In this document: one piece after another, positions 44,343-49,357 of the stretch
Layout of the letters: every line of letters begins with the position of its first letter
Numbering within the stretch: position 1 is the first letter of the stretch
DNA from: Sulfuritalea sp.
GTDB lineage: Bacteria; Pseudomonadota; Gammaproteobacteria; Burkholderiales; Rhodocyclaceae
NCBI GenBank assembly: GCA_022842325.1
Contig: JALHPU010000012.1
Span: 1-64,000, forward strand
Direction of reading: 5' to 3'
DNA length: 64,000 nt
Notes under the pieces: model-generated
What the model saw: only the letters and a program-made list of their open reading frames with translations
What the model was told of the DNA's origin: nothing
Database searches by the model: none
Translations under genes and position numbers: made by a program

Positions 44343-44878
44343 CGCGCCCGCAGCTCTGGCTGCTGCTCGGCATCCTCGCCCTGCTTGCCGCGGGCGCGGG
44401 CTATCGTTTCGGCGTACTGGGCAAAAGCGCTGAAACAGCGACCGCGGTGGCGCCGCAACTGCCGATTTTCGAAACGGTGCTGGCCGACCTGAAGGGGCAG
44501 ACGCAGAGTCTAAGCCAGTGGCGCGGCAAGGTGCTGGTAGTCAACTACTGGGCGACCTGGTGCCATCCCTGCCGCGAGGAAATGCCCGGCTTTTCCCGAC
44601 TGCAGGACAAATATCGCGACAAAGGCGTTCAATTTGTCGGCATCAGCATCGATACCGCAGACAAAATCATTGAATTTCAGAAAACCACCCCGGTGAGCTA
44701 TCCTTTGCTGATCGGTGACATCGGCGTCATGGAAAGCAGCGCCAAGCTCGGCAATGTCCGGCAGGCCTTACCTTTCACGGCGGTCTTCGATCAACAGGGC
44801 CGGCTTTCCGCGACCAAGCTGGGGCGTCTGGCGGAGCCGGAACTGGATCGTCAGCTGAAAGAGCTGATTTCACCCTAA
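44339..44878 (+). CDS. TlpA/ResA-like membrane-anchored thioredoxin
   Basis: A protein of 179 residues. An N-terminal signal anchor ([20 protein letters not shown]) puts the thioredoxin domain in the periplasm. The redox motif [15 protein letters not shown] and the cis-Pro in [10 protein letters not shown] are present. It probably reduces disulfides in cytochrome c or oxidase maturation; the heme-bearing oxidase operon nearby is compatible, but that link is inference. Confidence 0.9.
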
Positions 44879-44916
44879 CTGGACAAAGTGCCGGCATTTG
44901 CGGCAAACTTGCACCT

Positions 44917-45405
44917 ATGACGAAGCAAACACGCAGCAAAGCAAATACCAAGGCGGACGCCAACGGTGCGCTTCTGGTGCTCCACGGGCCGAACCTGAAC
45001 CTGCTGGGGACGCGCGAACCAGAGATCTATGGCCGCACCACCCTGGCCAGCATACACACGGCAATGGAGGCACGTGCCCGGGCCTTCGGCATCCGGCTCG
45101 AAAGCTTTCAGAGCAACCATGAAGGCGAACTGATCGACCGGGTGCAGTCGGCCCGCGAACAGGGCGTGCGCTTCATCATCATCAACCCGGCCGGCTATAC
45201 CCATACCAGTGTCGCCTTGCGCGACGCGCTGGCGGCAGTCGCGATCCCGTTTATCGAAGTCCACCTGTCGAATGTGCATGGGCGGGAGCCCTTCCGTCGC
45301 CATTCGTATTTTTCGGATATCGCCGTCGGCGTTATCTCCGGTCTTGGCGCACAAGGCTATGAACTGGCGCTGGAGGCAGCGCTGGCCCGCTTGCGCGTCG
45401 CCTGA
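44917..45405 (+). CDS. aroQ: 3-dehydroquinate dehydratase, type II
   Basis: A protein of 162 residues of the dodecameric shikimate-pathway enzyme. [16 protein letters not shown] carries the catalytic Arg and Tyr, [17 protein letters not shown] the substrate loop and [17 protein letters not shown] the catalytic His. A 19-residue charged N-terminal extension ([17 protein letters not shown]) is longer than usual; the start could be internal, but no better one is seen. It is upstream of accB, a common betaproteobacterial order. Confidence 0.96.
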
Positions 45406-45458
45406 CCCATCGAATCAGGCCGCGTCAACGGCCGCCTATTCTTGTTTGAGGAGTCCCC

Positions 45459-45917
45459 ATGGACCTGAGAAAACTCAAGACCCTGATCGATCTTGTGCAA
45501 AATTCCGGAATTTCGGAACTTGAAATCAGCGAAGGCGAGGAGAAGATTCGCATCGCCAAACACTTTGCGCCGGCGCCCGCCACGACTACGGTCAACATGC
45601 CGGTGTCGACCAGCGGCCCGGCCCCGATCGCCGCAGCGCCAGCGCCGACTGCCATTGCGGAGGCCATCCCCGCGCAGTTCGAGGGGCACGTCATGAAGGC
45701 GCCCATGGTCGGCACCTTTTATCGCTCCAGCAGCCCCGATGCCGCTCCCTTCGTCGAAGTCGGGCAGACCGTCAAGGCCGGCGACACCCTGTGCGTCATC
45801 GAAGCCATGAAACTGATGAACGAGATCGAAGCCGACATTTCCGGCGTGATCAAGGCCATCCAGGTCGAAAACGGCCAGGCCGTGGAGTACGGGCAACCCA
45901 TGTTCGTGATCGGCTGA
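45459..45917 (+). CDS. accB: Biotin carboxyl carrier protein of acetyl-CoA carboxylase
   Basis: A protein of 152 residues. An N-terminal dimerising part ([20 protein letters not shown]) and an Ala/Pro-rich hinge (about residues 40-68) are followed by a biotinyl domain with the biotinylated Lys in [17 protein letters not shown]. It carries CO2 between AccC and AccAD for fatty acid synthesis. Two bases after its stop a frame begins exactly like accC but is not the real accC. Confidence 0.97.
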
Positions 45918-45919
45918 CC

Positions 45920-46048
45920 ATGTTCGGCAAGGTATTGATTGCCAATCGCGGGGACCAACTGCCGTCAGGCGGCGCAGCAGCGAAGCTAAATCGCCCAACG
46001 GCCGCAGGCCGTGGGGGCGATTTCGCCGGAGACAAAAATGTTCGGTAA
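45920..46048 (+). CDS. 42-codon leader frame starting like AccC (decayed accC start)
   Basis: Beginning two bases after accB, the frame encodes [12 protein letters not shown] and then unrelated residues ending [11 protein letters not shown]. The first eleven codons match the accC N-terminus in protein, but the DNA differs at most silent positions (GGC/GGT, GTA/GTT, TTG/CTG, ATT/ATC, CGC/CGA). Its TAA (46046-46048) falls eight bases into the real accC, so translation could be coupled. It looks like the scar of an original accC start left by an insertion or replacement. Confidence 0.7.
45988..46023. repeat. Nested stem-loop in the accB-accC spacer
   Basis: An outer 9-bp stem (45988-45996 with 46015-46023) encloses a 6-bp inner stem (45998-46003 with 46007-46012) with loop GCA. 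The structure ends 14 bases before the accC ATG. It may be part of an inserted repeat and could influence accC translation. Confidence 0.6.
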
Positions 46049-47402
46049 GGTTCTGATCGCCAATCGAGGCGAAATCGCCCTGCGTATCCTGCGCGCCTGC
46101 CGCGAGCTCGGAGTGCGCACGGTCGCGGTGCATTCGGAAGCGGACACCGAGGCGAAATACGTCAAGCTGGCCGACGAATCGGTCTGCATCGGTCCGGCGC
46201 CGTCTAGCCAAAGCTATCTCAACATCCCCGCCATCATTTCCGCGGCCGAAGTCACCGACGCCGAGGCGATCCACCCCGGCTACGGCTTCCTCTCGGAGAA
46301 CGCCGACTTTGCCGAGCGGGTCGAGAAGTCCGGCTTTGCCTTCATCGGCCCGCGGCCCGAGACCATCCGCCTGATGGGCGACAAGGTCAGCGCCAAGAAC
46401 GCCATGCGCGAAGCCGGGGTGCCCTGCGTCCCCGGTTCCGAAGGCGCCCTGCCCGACGACCCGAAGGAAATCACCAAGATCGGCCGCGCGGTAGGTTACC
46501 CGGTCATCATCAAGGCGGCCGGCGGCGGCGGCGGGCGCGGCATGCGCGTGGTGCATACCGAGGCCGCGTTGCTTAACGCGGTCAATATGACCCGTGCCGA
46601 GGCCGGCGCCGCCTTCAACAATCCCACCGTCTATATGGAGAAGTTCCTCGAGAATCCGCGCCACGTGGAAATCCAGGTGCTCTCCGACGCGCATCGCAAC
46701 TCTGTCTATCTGGGCGAGCGCGACTGCTCGATGCAGCGCCGGCACCAGAAGGTGATCGAGGAAGCTCCGGCGCCGGACATCAACCGCCGCGTCATCGGCC
46801 GCGTCGGCGACCGTTGTGCCGAGGCCTGCCGCCGCATCAATTACCGCGGCGCCGGCACCTTCGAGTTCCTCTACGAGAACGGCGAGTTCTATTTCATCGA
46901 GATGAACACGCGGGTCCAGGTCGAGCACCCGGTCACCGAACTGATCACCGGCATCGACATCGTCCAGGCGCAGATCCGCATCGCCGCCGGCGAGAAACTC
47001 TGGTTCAAGCAGCGCGACATCGAAATTCGTGGCCATGCCATCGAATGCCGCATCAATGCCGAGGATCCCTTCAAGTTCACCCCCTCACCGGGCAAGATCA
47101 ACAACTGGCATCCGCCTGGCGGCCCGGGCATTCGCGTCGACTCGCACGCCTATTCCGGCTACACCGTGCCGCCTCACTACGACTCGATGATCGGCAAGGT
47201 GATCGCTTACGGCGACACGCGCGAACAGGCCATCCGGCGGATGCGCATCGCGCTGTCGGAAATGATGGTGGATGGCATCAAGACCAATATTCCGCTGCAC
47301 CAGGACCTGATGCTCGACGAACGCTTCATCAAGGGCGGCACCAGCATTCACTACCTCGAAGAAAAGCTCGCCGCCAAGAGCGACGCCCTCAAAGGCAAAT
47401 AG
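46038..47402 (+). CDS. accC: Biotin carboxylase subunit of acetyl-CoA carboxylase
   Basis: A cytosolic enzyme of 454 residues that carboxylates biotin on AccB using ATP and bicarbonate. [20 protein letters not shown], the ATP-grasp loop [15 protein letters not shown] and [16 protein letters not shown] are diagnostic. ATG 46038 is set by homology. It is separated from accB by 120 bases containing a second, non-functional accC start and a hairpin, instead of the normal few bases. Confidence 0.97.
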
Positions 47403-47585
47403 GGTCCAACGCTCATGACTTCGATGCACCACCCCGCATCATGAAATACCTTGACGTCGTGGCGCCTCAAGCTGGCAATTGGACCCACCCCCTCCCATCC
47501 TCCCCCTCACGGGGGAGGCTATCAATCGGCTCGCTGCGCTCGAACCTGACCCAGCGAGCTTGGCGACGTATTTCACGCTAACAGC
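47403..47585. other. accC-prmA spacer with REP-like hairpin
   Basis: A spacer of 183 bases with an 8-bp stem of C-run/G-run type (47499-47506 with 47511-47518, loop TCAC). It is of the same style as the hairpin at 10535-10555. A 46-codon frame (47442-47582) crosses it but has repeat-like composition and no recognisable domain. Probably an intergenic repeat element. Confidence 0.5.
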
Positions 47586-48485
47586 ATGTGGGTCAGCGTC
47601 GCCCTGGAAACTGACGCCGCGCATGCGGATGCGCTGTCCGACGCGCTGCTCGCGGCCGGCGCGATCTCCGTCAGCGTCGAGGATGCCCTGGCCGGCACCG
47701 ACCTCGAAACGCCGCAGTTCGGCGAGCCCGATGCGTCGGGCGGCGGCCCGACCACCCCGCTCTGGACTGAGAGCCGCGTCGTGGCGCTGTTCGACCCCAG
47801 CGATGACCTGATCGGGCGCATTACCGCAGCGACCTTGGCCGCCGGCATCGACGACCTGCCGGAGATCGAACTGGAAGACGTCGCCGAACAGGACTGGGTG
47901 CGGCTGACGCAAGCGCAGTTCGATCCGATCCGGGTCAATCATCGCCTGTGGATCGTGCCCTCCTGGCACGCCGCACCCGATGCCGACGCCATCAATCTGG
48001 TGCTCGACCCGGGCCTCGCCTTCGGCACCGGCTCGCATCCCACCACCTTCCTCTGCCTGCAATGGCTGAGCGAAACCCTGCGCGGCGGCGAGACGCTGCT
48101 CGACTACGGCTGCGGCTCGGGCATCCTCGGCATTGCCGCGGCGAAGCTGGGCGCCGCGTCGGTGCTCGGCGTCGATATCGATCGCAACGCCCTGACGGCC
48201 GCCGCCGACAACGCCGCCCGCAACGAGATCGCGCTGGCCCTGCGCCATTCCGGCGAGACGCTGGACGAACAGTTCGACGTGGTGGTTGCCAACATCCTGA
48301 CCAACCCGCTGTGCGTGCTGGCGCCGCTGCTCTCCGCGCGGATCGGCAGGAACGGGCGCATCGCACTGTCCGGCGTGCTGGCGACCCAGGCCGGGCAGGT
48401 AATCGCCGCCTATGCACCCTGGCTCGCCCTGCACGTGGGCGCCGAGCGCGACGGCTGGGTGCGGCTGGAGGGTTCGCGTTGCTGA
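47586..48485 (+). CDS. prmA: Ribosomal protein L11 methyltransferase
   Basis: A protein of 299 residues. An N-terminal L11-recognition domain (SVSVEDALAGTDLETPQFGE) is followed by a class I SAM domain with DPGLAFGTGSHPTT, LLDYGCGSGILGIAAAKLG and VVANILTNPL (catalytic region). It trimethylates L11 at several sites. Its stop overlaps the start of the zinc-ribbon gene (TTGCTGA). Confidence 0.97.
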   Translation: MWVSVALETDAAHADALSDALLAAGAISVSVEDALAGTDLETPQFGEPDASGGGPTTPLWTESRVVALFDPSDDLIGRITAATLAAGIDDLPEIELEDVAEQDWVRLTQAQFDPIRVNHRLWIVPSWHAAPDADAINLVLDPGLAFGTGSHPTTFLCLQWLSETLRGGETLLDYGCGSGILGIAAAKLGAASVLGVDIDRNALTAAADNAARNEIALALRHSGETLDEQFDVVVANILTNPLCVLAPLLSARIGRNGRIALSGVLATQAGQVIAAYAPWLALHVGAERDGWVRLEGSRC

Positions 48486-49357
48486 CCCGCTGCCCGTCCT
48501 GCGCCACCAATTTTCGGGTCACCCCCGAGCAGCTCAAGGCGCGCGCCGGACGGGTGCGCTGCGGCGAATGCCAGAACGTCTTCAATGCCCTCGACACCCT
48601 GATCGAAGAGCCGCTTGCGATGTCGGCACCGACGGCCGAAGTCGGCGTAGCGCCAGCGCCGACTGTTGAAGAACTCTCCGACTGGCCGCCGGACGCCGGG
48701 GAATCCATCTCCTCGGCGCCCACCGCTTCCTCCGCAGCCCTGCCGGAGGACTCTGCTGCCATGACGGAGCAGGACGCCGAAACGGCTGAGACTTCCCCGG
48801 CAAAAGAATCGGAGGCTGTCGAAGCGGACACGAAGCAGGAAGCCGACTGGAGCGCCGATTTTCCCGAGCCGCCGCCCGCGCCGCGTCGCTGGCCCTGGAT
48901 CATCGGCAGCCTGATCGCGCTGACGGCGCTCGGCCTGCAGGCGGTGCTGGCGTTTCGCGTCGAACTCTCGGTGCTGTGGCCGGAGAGCAAGCCGAGGCTG
49001 GTGGCGCTGTGCGAAGCCGTCGGTTGCGAAGTCGGCTTCCCTGCCAGGATCGCGCTGGTCGGCATCGAAGCCTCCGATTTGCACCCGGACAGCGAACGCA
49101 AGGGCCGCCTCGCGCTGTCCGCGATACTGAAAAATCGCGCGCCCTTCGCCCAGCAGTATCCCCATCTGGAACTGACGCTCACCGACACGGCCGACAAGGC
49201 CATCGCGCGCAAGGTGCTGGCGCCGGCCGACTACCTGCCGCCGAAGTCATCGAGCGCCGGCGGCATGCCGCCCAACGCCGACATCGCGGTCATTGTCGGC
49301 GTAGACTCCGGCGAGCTGGCGGCCAGCGGCTACCGGCTCTACGTTTTCTATCCCTGA
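48479..49357 (+). CDS. Zinc-ribbon membrane protein with DUF3426 domain
   Basis: A protein of 292 residues. An N-terminal MJ0042-type zinc ribbon (LTRCPSCATNFRVTPEQLKA, then RVRCGECQNVFNALDTLI) is followed by an acidic linker of about 100 residues, one membrane helix (WPWIIGSLIALTALGLQAVLAF) and a C-terminal DUF3426 domain. TTG 48479 overlaps the prmA stop. The linker contains a dispersed repeat encoding GVAPAPTV. Function is unknown; the build suggests a membrane-linked regulator. Confidence 0.88.
   Translation: MLTRCPSCATNFRVTPEQLKARAGRVRCGECQNVFNALDTLIEEPLAMSAPTAEVGVAPAPTVEELSDWPPDAGESISSAPTASSAALPEDSAAMTEQDAETAETSPAKESEAVEADTKQEADWSADFPEPPPAPRRWPWIIGSLIALTALGLQAVLAFRVELSVLWPESKPRLVALCEAVGCEVGFPARIALVGIEASDLHPDSERKGRLALSAILKNRAPFAQQYPHLELTLTDTADKAIARKVLAPADYLPPKSSSAGGMPPNADIAVIVGVDSGELAASGYRLYVFYP
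48643..48667. repeat. Dispersed 25-bp repeat, copy B2
   Basis: It matches the reverse complement of 29706-29730 at 23 of 25 positions. Here it encodes GVAPAPTV in the acidic linker of the DUF3426 protein. Its ends form a 7-bp inverted repeat with the preceding base (GTCGGCG and CGCCGAC). Confidence 0.55.

Follow-up and report, generated by a model that had tools for sequence, protein, structure and literature searches.

A leader that copies the start of its own enzyme: a candidate translational relay of biotin-carboxylase genes

Why should a biotin-carboxylase gene be preceded by a second copy of its own start? The question is raised by the accB-accC junction of a Sulfuritalea contig, of which we analyzed a stretch of 64,000 nt (the window). 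There, accB ends at 45917, two nucleotides (CC) follow, and an ATG at 45920 opens a frame whose eleven first residues are those of AccC (Table 1). The initial annotation had seen this frame, placing it at 45918 rather than 45920. It was explained as the original accC start, left as a scar when an insertion or a divergent allele replaced the gene and now working as a coupled leader.

All 11 residues of this decoy are identical to the start of AccC, and its 33 nt carry 6 differences, all silent, at codons 3, 5, 6, 7, 10 and 11. Silent changes thus affect 6 of the 10 codons after the ATG. The stem-loop described in the leader is also real: the region 45915-46060 folds with a z-score of -2.5, matched by 3 of 200 shuffles. 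The leader was said to stop eight bases inside accC, which is right for the beginning of the stop codon (8 nt inside the gene) and not for its end (11 nt inside); in the window accC codon 2 is TTC and the leader stop comes from GGTAAG. The stop thus overlaps the accC start, as expected of the coupled leader that had been proposed. A chance arrangement is excluded by the recurrence of this layout in congeners and before other biotin-carboxylase genes. We also observed a palindromic CCCTCCC...GGGGGAGG stretch at 47440-47540, between accC and the next gene.

Table 1. Features of the accB-accC junction, in coordinates of the 64,000-nt window.
Feature	Position	Strand	Basis
accB, biotin carboxyl carrier protein, upstream gene	45459..45917	+	ORF list; TIGR00531 BCCP above cut-off
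Leader ORF, 42 codons plus TAA, stop overlapping the accC start by 11 nt	45920..46048	+	Sequence, ORF list
Decoy copy of AccC codons 1-11	45920..45952	+	Sequence; purifying selection on amino acids in relatives
Hairpin H1 of the core	45959..45972	+	Covariation in 17 and 91 sequences
Hairpin H2, triloop mini-hairpin AGC-GAA-GCT	45979..45987	+	A-U vs. G-C exchanges at 2 of 3 pairs; 95.9% of cells paired
Hairpin H3	45988..46023	+	Apical part 45998-46012 covaries; basal part nearly without two-sided changes
Antisense tail	46016..46031	+	Sequence; 16-position test on 145 copies
Shine-Dalgarno-like GGAG of accC, 6 nt 5' of the ATG	46028..46031	+	Sequence
accC, biotin carboxylase; codons 9-14 (46062-46079) are the tail partner	46038..47402	+	TIGR00514 accC above cut-off

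Occurrence of the element at biotin-carboxylase genes

We searched 61 genomes, including the window's, for the junction and inspected the loci. At 13 congener loci without the element, accC starts 2 nt past accB, exactly at the decoy position; the decoy therefore occupies the original start position, and to this extent the idea of an original accC start stands. A decoy and a core of 85-88 nt lie between accB and accC in the window and in G003, G004, G005, G006, G007, G015 and G020, the last of which has three starts spaced by 121 nt. This core is also found before other biotin-carboxylase-family genes in G001, G005, G015, G016, G027, G030 and G036, with decoys that include MFKKILIANRGD, MFNKILIANRGD and MSFRKLLVANRGD. 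Comparison of relatives, which had been suggested as a check, gave a mixed answer to the refuting condition of the initial annotation: the leader is common to them, with conservation past residue 11 as RNA and not as peptide.

On an AccC tree of 23 congeners and 5 outgroup rows, built without the short rows L012 and L016, the 8 carriers are dispersed and require 7 changes, against a mean of 6.7 with shuffled labels, and at least 3 of the changes are forced by well-supported branches. Being patchy even among congeners, the element is dispensable, and precise loss through recombination between the 33-nt repeats would be the simplest route. Tandem copies of decoy and core, mostly spaced by 117-121 nt, precede a single gene in L008/L045, L009/L044, L097, L099, L110, L132, L139, L154, L207, L241 and L289.

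Five congeners have unrelated leader ORFs in the accB-accC gap, opening at the same ATG 2 nt past accB (23-65 codons; loci L011, L013, L021, L027 and L010/L046). Four of them end 11 nt inside the next start, which is accC or, in G006, the decoy, and the one in L011 ends 19 nt inside accC. In G006 the unrelated leader ORF stands in series with the decoy leader. A GGGGCGGCCCGGCGGAGGCATG end is common to L010, L013 and L027, with a similar end in L011, and such ends suggest a second, putative repeat element. Read as sequence arrangements, the unrelated leaders support a probable relay role of the accB-accC gap in general.

To follow the element further, we used model R2 and a core-only pattern. 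Of 297 genomes of the window's family, model R2 matched 73 at E<=0.01, counting the window's own, and 62 at E<=1e-8. It also matched 28 of 399 genomes of the order at E<=0.001, again including the window's, and 2 of 369 genomes of the class, namely the window's and L299, where the match is not at a biotin-carboxylase gene. The model contains 9 nt of the decoy and so leans to decoy context; the core-only pattern, which has no decoy or start letters, does not. Run over a collection of species genomes, this pattern gave at least 123 matches in at least 119 stretches. Among the 123 matches listed, 118 belong to the element and 5 (L203, L205, L222, L253 and L262) were judged chance. The decoy is visible in all but two of these 118: L216 is cut by a contig end, and the decoy start is gone from L254. 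Whenever the stretch extends far enough, the match is followed by the start of a biotin-carboxylase gene or by another copy of the decoy. Across the family, order and class searches with the model and the pattern matches listed, every confirmed copy precedes a biotin-carboxylase-family gene. Outside close relatives, the nearest cores stand before the same gene type in 135 of 140 cases; on this count and the 118 of 123, a promiscuous mobile repeat was rejected. The leader peptide, searched against plasmids, gave no match.

Genera among the listed true matches include Azoarcus, Thauera, Sulfuritalea, Variovorax, Polaromonas, Rhodoferax and Acidovorax, all of which we take to be Burkholderiales in the wide GTDB sense. 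The element was also seen at long EIACR genes in L178 (Marinobacterium nitratireducens), L251 (Motiliproteus sediminis) and L266 (L178-like); the two named species are presumably Gammaproteobacteria outside Burkholderiales. Sixteen weak model matches (L157-L172) comprise 4 before biotin-carboxylase genes and 12 elsewhere, the latter taken as chance. The four (L157, L158, L161 and L162), three of them with a visible decoy, represent a diverged subtype of the element at further biotin-carboxylase genes. This subtype scores weakly with the model, so true numbers of the element are probably higher.

For the counts below we collected 154 copies with a recognizable decoy and gene start, of which 145 have no further copy between them and the gene. 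This is a selected set that includes relatives: a copy was kept if its decoy start codon lay 11, 12 or 13 codons upstream of the core, its gene start was recognized and its core fitted a regular expression. Downstream frames are complete in 101 of the 145 copies, 27 of them encoding 400-499 aa (EIALR, AccC-like) and 74 encoding 650-749 aa (EIACR). A family-model scan covered seven proteins: AccB and AccC of the window, AccC of L092 and four long proteins. The accC model was passed by the window's AccC and the L092 protein. Three of the four long proteins pass the biotin-carboxylase subfamily model, with L177 just below, and all four match C-terminal carrier-domain models below the cut-off; they would be alpha subunits of acyl-CoA carboxylases.

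Conservation of core, tail, stop and decoy

The ~85-nt core between the two starts is, judged by pairing across its copies, a conserved structured RNA. In 17 cores, 93.2% of the cells of three hairpins are paired, compared with a shuffle mean of 84.0 and 28-39% in slid controls. In 91 matches (90 distinct rows), aligned by fitting to the model and hence leaning to the proposed structure, the paired share of cells is 90.3%, against 30-37% in slid controls, and 264 cells are doubly changed, compared with 82.8 in shuffles. Weaker measures on the same matches gave 15 pairs with two-sided change vs. 12.1, reached by 23 of 500 shuffles, and 36 further pair types vs. 31.9, reached by 15 of 500. Rfam returned 0 matches at the gathering score in 44500-48500 of the window. 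Up to an E-value of 1 in L204, L178 and L182, it returned one sub-threshold match, inside the L178 gene, and none at the element.

Following the core is a tail of 16 nt that ends at the Shine-Dalgarno sequence and is a near reverse complement of the gene's codons 9-14 (AAY CGN GGN GAR ATH GCN). In the window, 46016-46027 forms 12 perfect pairs with accC 46068-46079. Over the 145 copies, 2194 of 2320 cells pair between tail and gene, compared with a mean of 2042 and a maximum of 2071 in 1000 shuffles; the tail was located by consensus, so that part of this level is built in, and the shuffles keep that part. All six wobble positions covary, each beating all 1000 shuffles, in a set where, as in the overlap and decoy tests below, copies are related and both shuffles and statistics ignore kinship. 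At least 15 of the 16 positions pair in 119 of the 145 copies, and pairing is perfect in 59. In element-free genes it reaches 7-11 of 16 in 88 of 90 and 13 in the other two. The tail-gene duplex has an energy of -29.1 kcal/mol, compared with -24.0 with random synonymous codons, and is the stronger of the two in 136 of 145 copies; folding the tail onto the gene is more stable than folding leader and gene separately in 133 of 145. The basal part of hairpin H3 is in competition with this tail-gene stem.

The tail also pairs with the decoy copy, at 1971 of 2304 cells (shuffle maximum 1943), which is poorer than with the gene. At the three NRG wobbles, where decoy and gene differ, it fits the gene alone 125 times and the decoy alone 21 times, with 10 undecided. 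A closing stem between the NRGD codons of the decoy and the tail, for which 636 of 712 cells had first paired (shuffles at most 626), was rejected, as the tail follows the gene copy.

The position of the leader stop is similarly kept. It overlaps the gene ATG by 8 nt in 127 of the 145 copies, by 11 nt in 10, and by 4 nt and 19 nt in one each; in 5 copies it precedes the ATG by 3 to 16 nt, and for one copy the sequence read contains no stop. The relative frame of the gene is the same in 139 of the 145 copies, and the leader is 40-43 aa long in 136. Codon 2 of genes with the element is TTT in 129 copies, TTC in 15 and ATT in one, while in the decoy it is TTT in 71 and TTC in 60. Element-free genes with F at codon 2 (84) have TTT in 18 and TTC in 66 (Fisher 6e-26 against genes with the element), in a control of 90 genes classed by motif, at least one of which is mis-tagged (L322, whose contig begins inside a core). 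In most gene types the overlapping stop is created by TTT.

Decoy constraint was counted only on 33-nt decoys, in non-overlapping pairs within a set identity range. In codons 2-8 of 55 nearest-neighbor pairs there are 19, 25 and 153 differences at codon positions 1, 2 and 3 (pN/pS 0.098), compared with 16, 1 and 139 for the real starts (pN/pS 0.039). In 11 close pairs, with core identities of 0.89-1.00, codons 2-11 of the decoy carry 26 silent and 2 replacement changes although 77% of sites are replacement sites (binomial 6e-15); an alternative count gives 24 and 4. The core, read in the leader frame, has a pN/pS of 0.79, with 223, 180 and 194 differences by codon position (51 pairs). Judged by these substitution patterns, the amino acids of the decoy are under constraint and the core is without coding constraint.

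Candidate mechanism and alternative explanations

We consider it probable, at roughly two chances in three, that the element acts in cis as a conserved translational relay of biotin-carboxylase genes. The relay would use four parts that comparison of the copies has shown: the overlap, the putative tail-gene stem, the predicted RNA hairpins and the constrained decoy. The leader ORF would be translated after the upstream gene, which in the window is accB. Pairing of the tail with codons 9-14 of the gene would enclose the start codon in the loop of a long stem, and fresh ribosomes would be barred from starting on the gene while this stem is closed. A ribosome crossing the core and tail within the leader would melt the stem, terminate at the stop overlapping the ATG and then reinitiate on the enzyme gene. 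We infer the block of initiation by the stem, the need for leader translation and an outcome of subunit balance or feedback. A gating of the Shine-Dalgarno sequence by the decoy was not seen in the folding of 60 sampled copies, which counts against the relay: the mean unpaired probability of this sequence was 0.412 in full, 0.411 with the decoy melted, 0.418 with it deleted and 0.416 with random synonymous codons in the decoy.

Several further observations count against the relay. A plain relay needs no copy of the enzyme's N-terminus, yet the decoy peptide is constrained. The unrelated leaders of the five congeners, as predicted from their reading frames, manage without an enzyme-like peptide; they end inside the next start, and such a peptide is therefore unneeded for a relay. 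There are also six stops outside the overlap in the 145 copies and one copy without a stop, and the element's presence is patchy.

Could the decoy be constrained simply because it is often the real start? Direct repeats of 33 nt would allow precise deletion, with regain by recombination, and such cycling would keep coding constraint on the decoy without any function of the leader peptide. The scattered carriers, which cluster no better than shuffled labels, and the existence of tandem copies agree with this, as do silent sites that are closer between a decoy and its own gene (pS 0.52) than between a decoy and other loci (0.75). However, decoy constraint persists in close pairs with nearly identical cores, and the agreement of nearest cores in gene type argues for long inheritance within a gene family. 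On balance, cycling of this kind seems rather unlikely to be the explanation.

The constrained peptide could instead be a signal. At 40-43 residues, the leader is roughly ten residues longer than what the ribosome tunnel holds, so that at termination the constrained residues would stand just outside; hence a display reading, in which the family regulates itself by showing its own N-terminus from a leader. With a ribosome at the leader end, the exit tunnel would be occupied by unconstrained core residues, leaving MFxKILIAN(RG) alone outside, where the enzyme, its partner subunit or a processing factor would bind it and decide on reinitiation. We regard such display as unlikely.

Far less probable is that a ribosome hop or an RNA splice joins the NRG of the decoy to the NRG of the gene, so that the decoy supplies the enzyme's N-terminus. 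In its favor, the constraint on decoy codons 1-11, next to a non-coding core, resembles that of an enzyme N-terminus, residue 3 of the decoy equals that of the local gene in 109 of 135 cases, and the tail could splint both copies. Against this, the gene keeps its own conserved ATG, Shine-Dalgarno sequence and stop overlap, the tail follows the gene copy by 125 to 21, and the third base of the Gly codon is identical between decoy and gene in only 0.55. In self-splicing introns and bypass sites, a guide pairs with the upstream junction, and take-off and landing codons match; on the same tail and Gly-codon counts, the element was rejected as either.

A neutral scar, in which an insertion would have stranded the original accC start and this start would now be decaying, is strongly disfavored. 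In its favor, accC of element-free congeners begins at the decoy position, constraint on decoys is somewhat weaker than on real starts (pN 0.056 vs. 0.021) and single decoys are damaged (AKLG in G004, AHRG in G007 and the first copy in G015), but the 11 close pairs share the insertion and still show 26 silent changes against 2 replacements, and core structure, antisense tail and stop overlap are kept across genera. The one-off event of the initial annotation, whether scar or allele replacement, is likewise not supported, as the unit of leader and RNA recurs at AccC and other biotin-carboxylase-family genes in many genera and, with its conserved hairpins and gene-matched antisense tail, is older than the species splits.

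Relation to known systems

Biotin carboxylases feed fatty-acid synthesis and related carboxylation pathways, and a leader that mimics an enzyme's N-terminus and carries antisense to its codons would couple subunit synthesis by a new design. The element is present in culturable genera (among the listed matches Azoarcus, Thauera, Variovorax, Polaromonas, Acidovorax and Rhodoferax), and its decoy could be mistaken for a gene start by gene finders. We found no description of a self-mimicking leader with a dedicated RNA and a gene-matched tail in openly licensed papers, nor in Rfam.

Attenuators are leader-ORF regulators with alternative RNA stems, and in tubulin autoregulation TTC5 reportedly reads the N-terminus of the nascent polypeptide. 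The tubulin system (PMC10403363, in the excerpts available) resembles the element only under the display reading, with a nascent chain as signal; it is eukaryotic and acts through mRNA decay, whereas here the peptide lies in a separate leader, without a known reader. A bacterial uORF before topAI-yjhQ, as the available part of PMC12121999 describes it, is alike in having a short leader ORF and alternative stems around the ribosome-binding site. Compared with it and with attenuators, the element has no sensing codons or arrest peptide that we recognized, and it is the first 11 leader residues that are constrained.

Closest is termination-reinitiation coupling, in which, as far as the available excerpts of PMC6728339 and PMC10666635 go, stop and start likewise overlap and translation of the upstream frame should drive the gene that follows. 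Overlapping gene pairs of this type often encode subunits of heteromeric complexes (PMC10666635, in the part available), as accB and accC do. In contrast to the pairs in these excerpts, the upstream frame here is not a gene: it is a leader of 40-43 aa copying the downstream N-terminus. The overlap is 8 or 11 nt here vs. 4 or 1 nt in those pairs, and the arrangement here also contains a dedicated RNA element bearing an antisense tail. The combination of leader, RNA and tail appears undescribed in the literature found, and the element, judged by its layout, would work like termination-reinitiation coupling.
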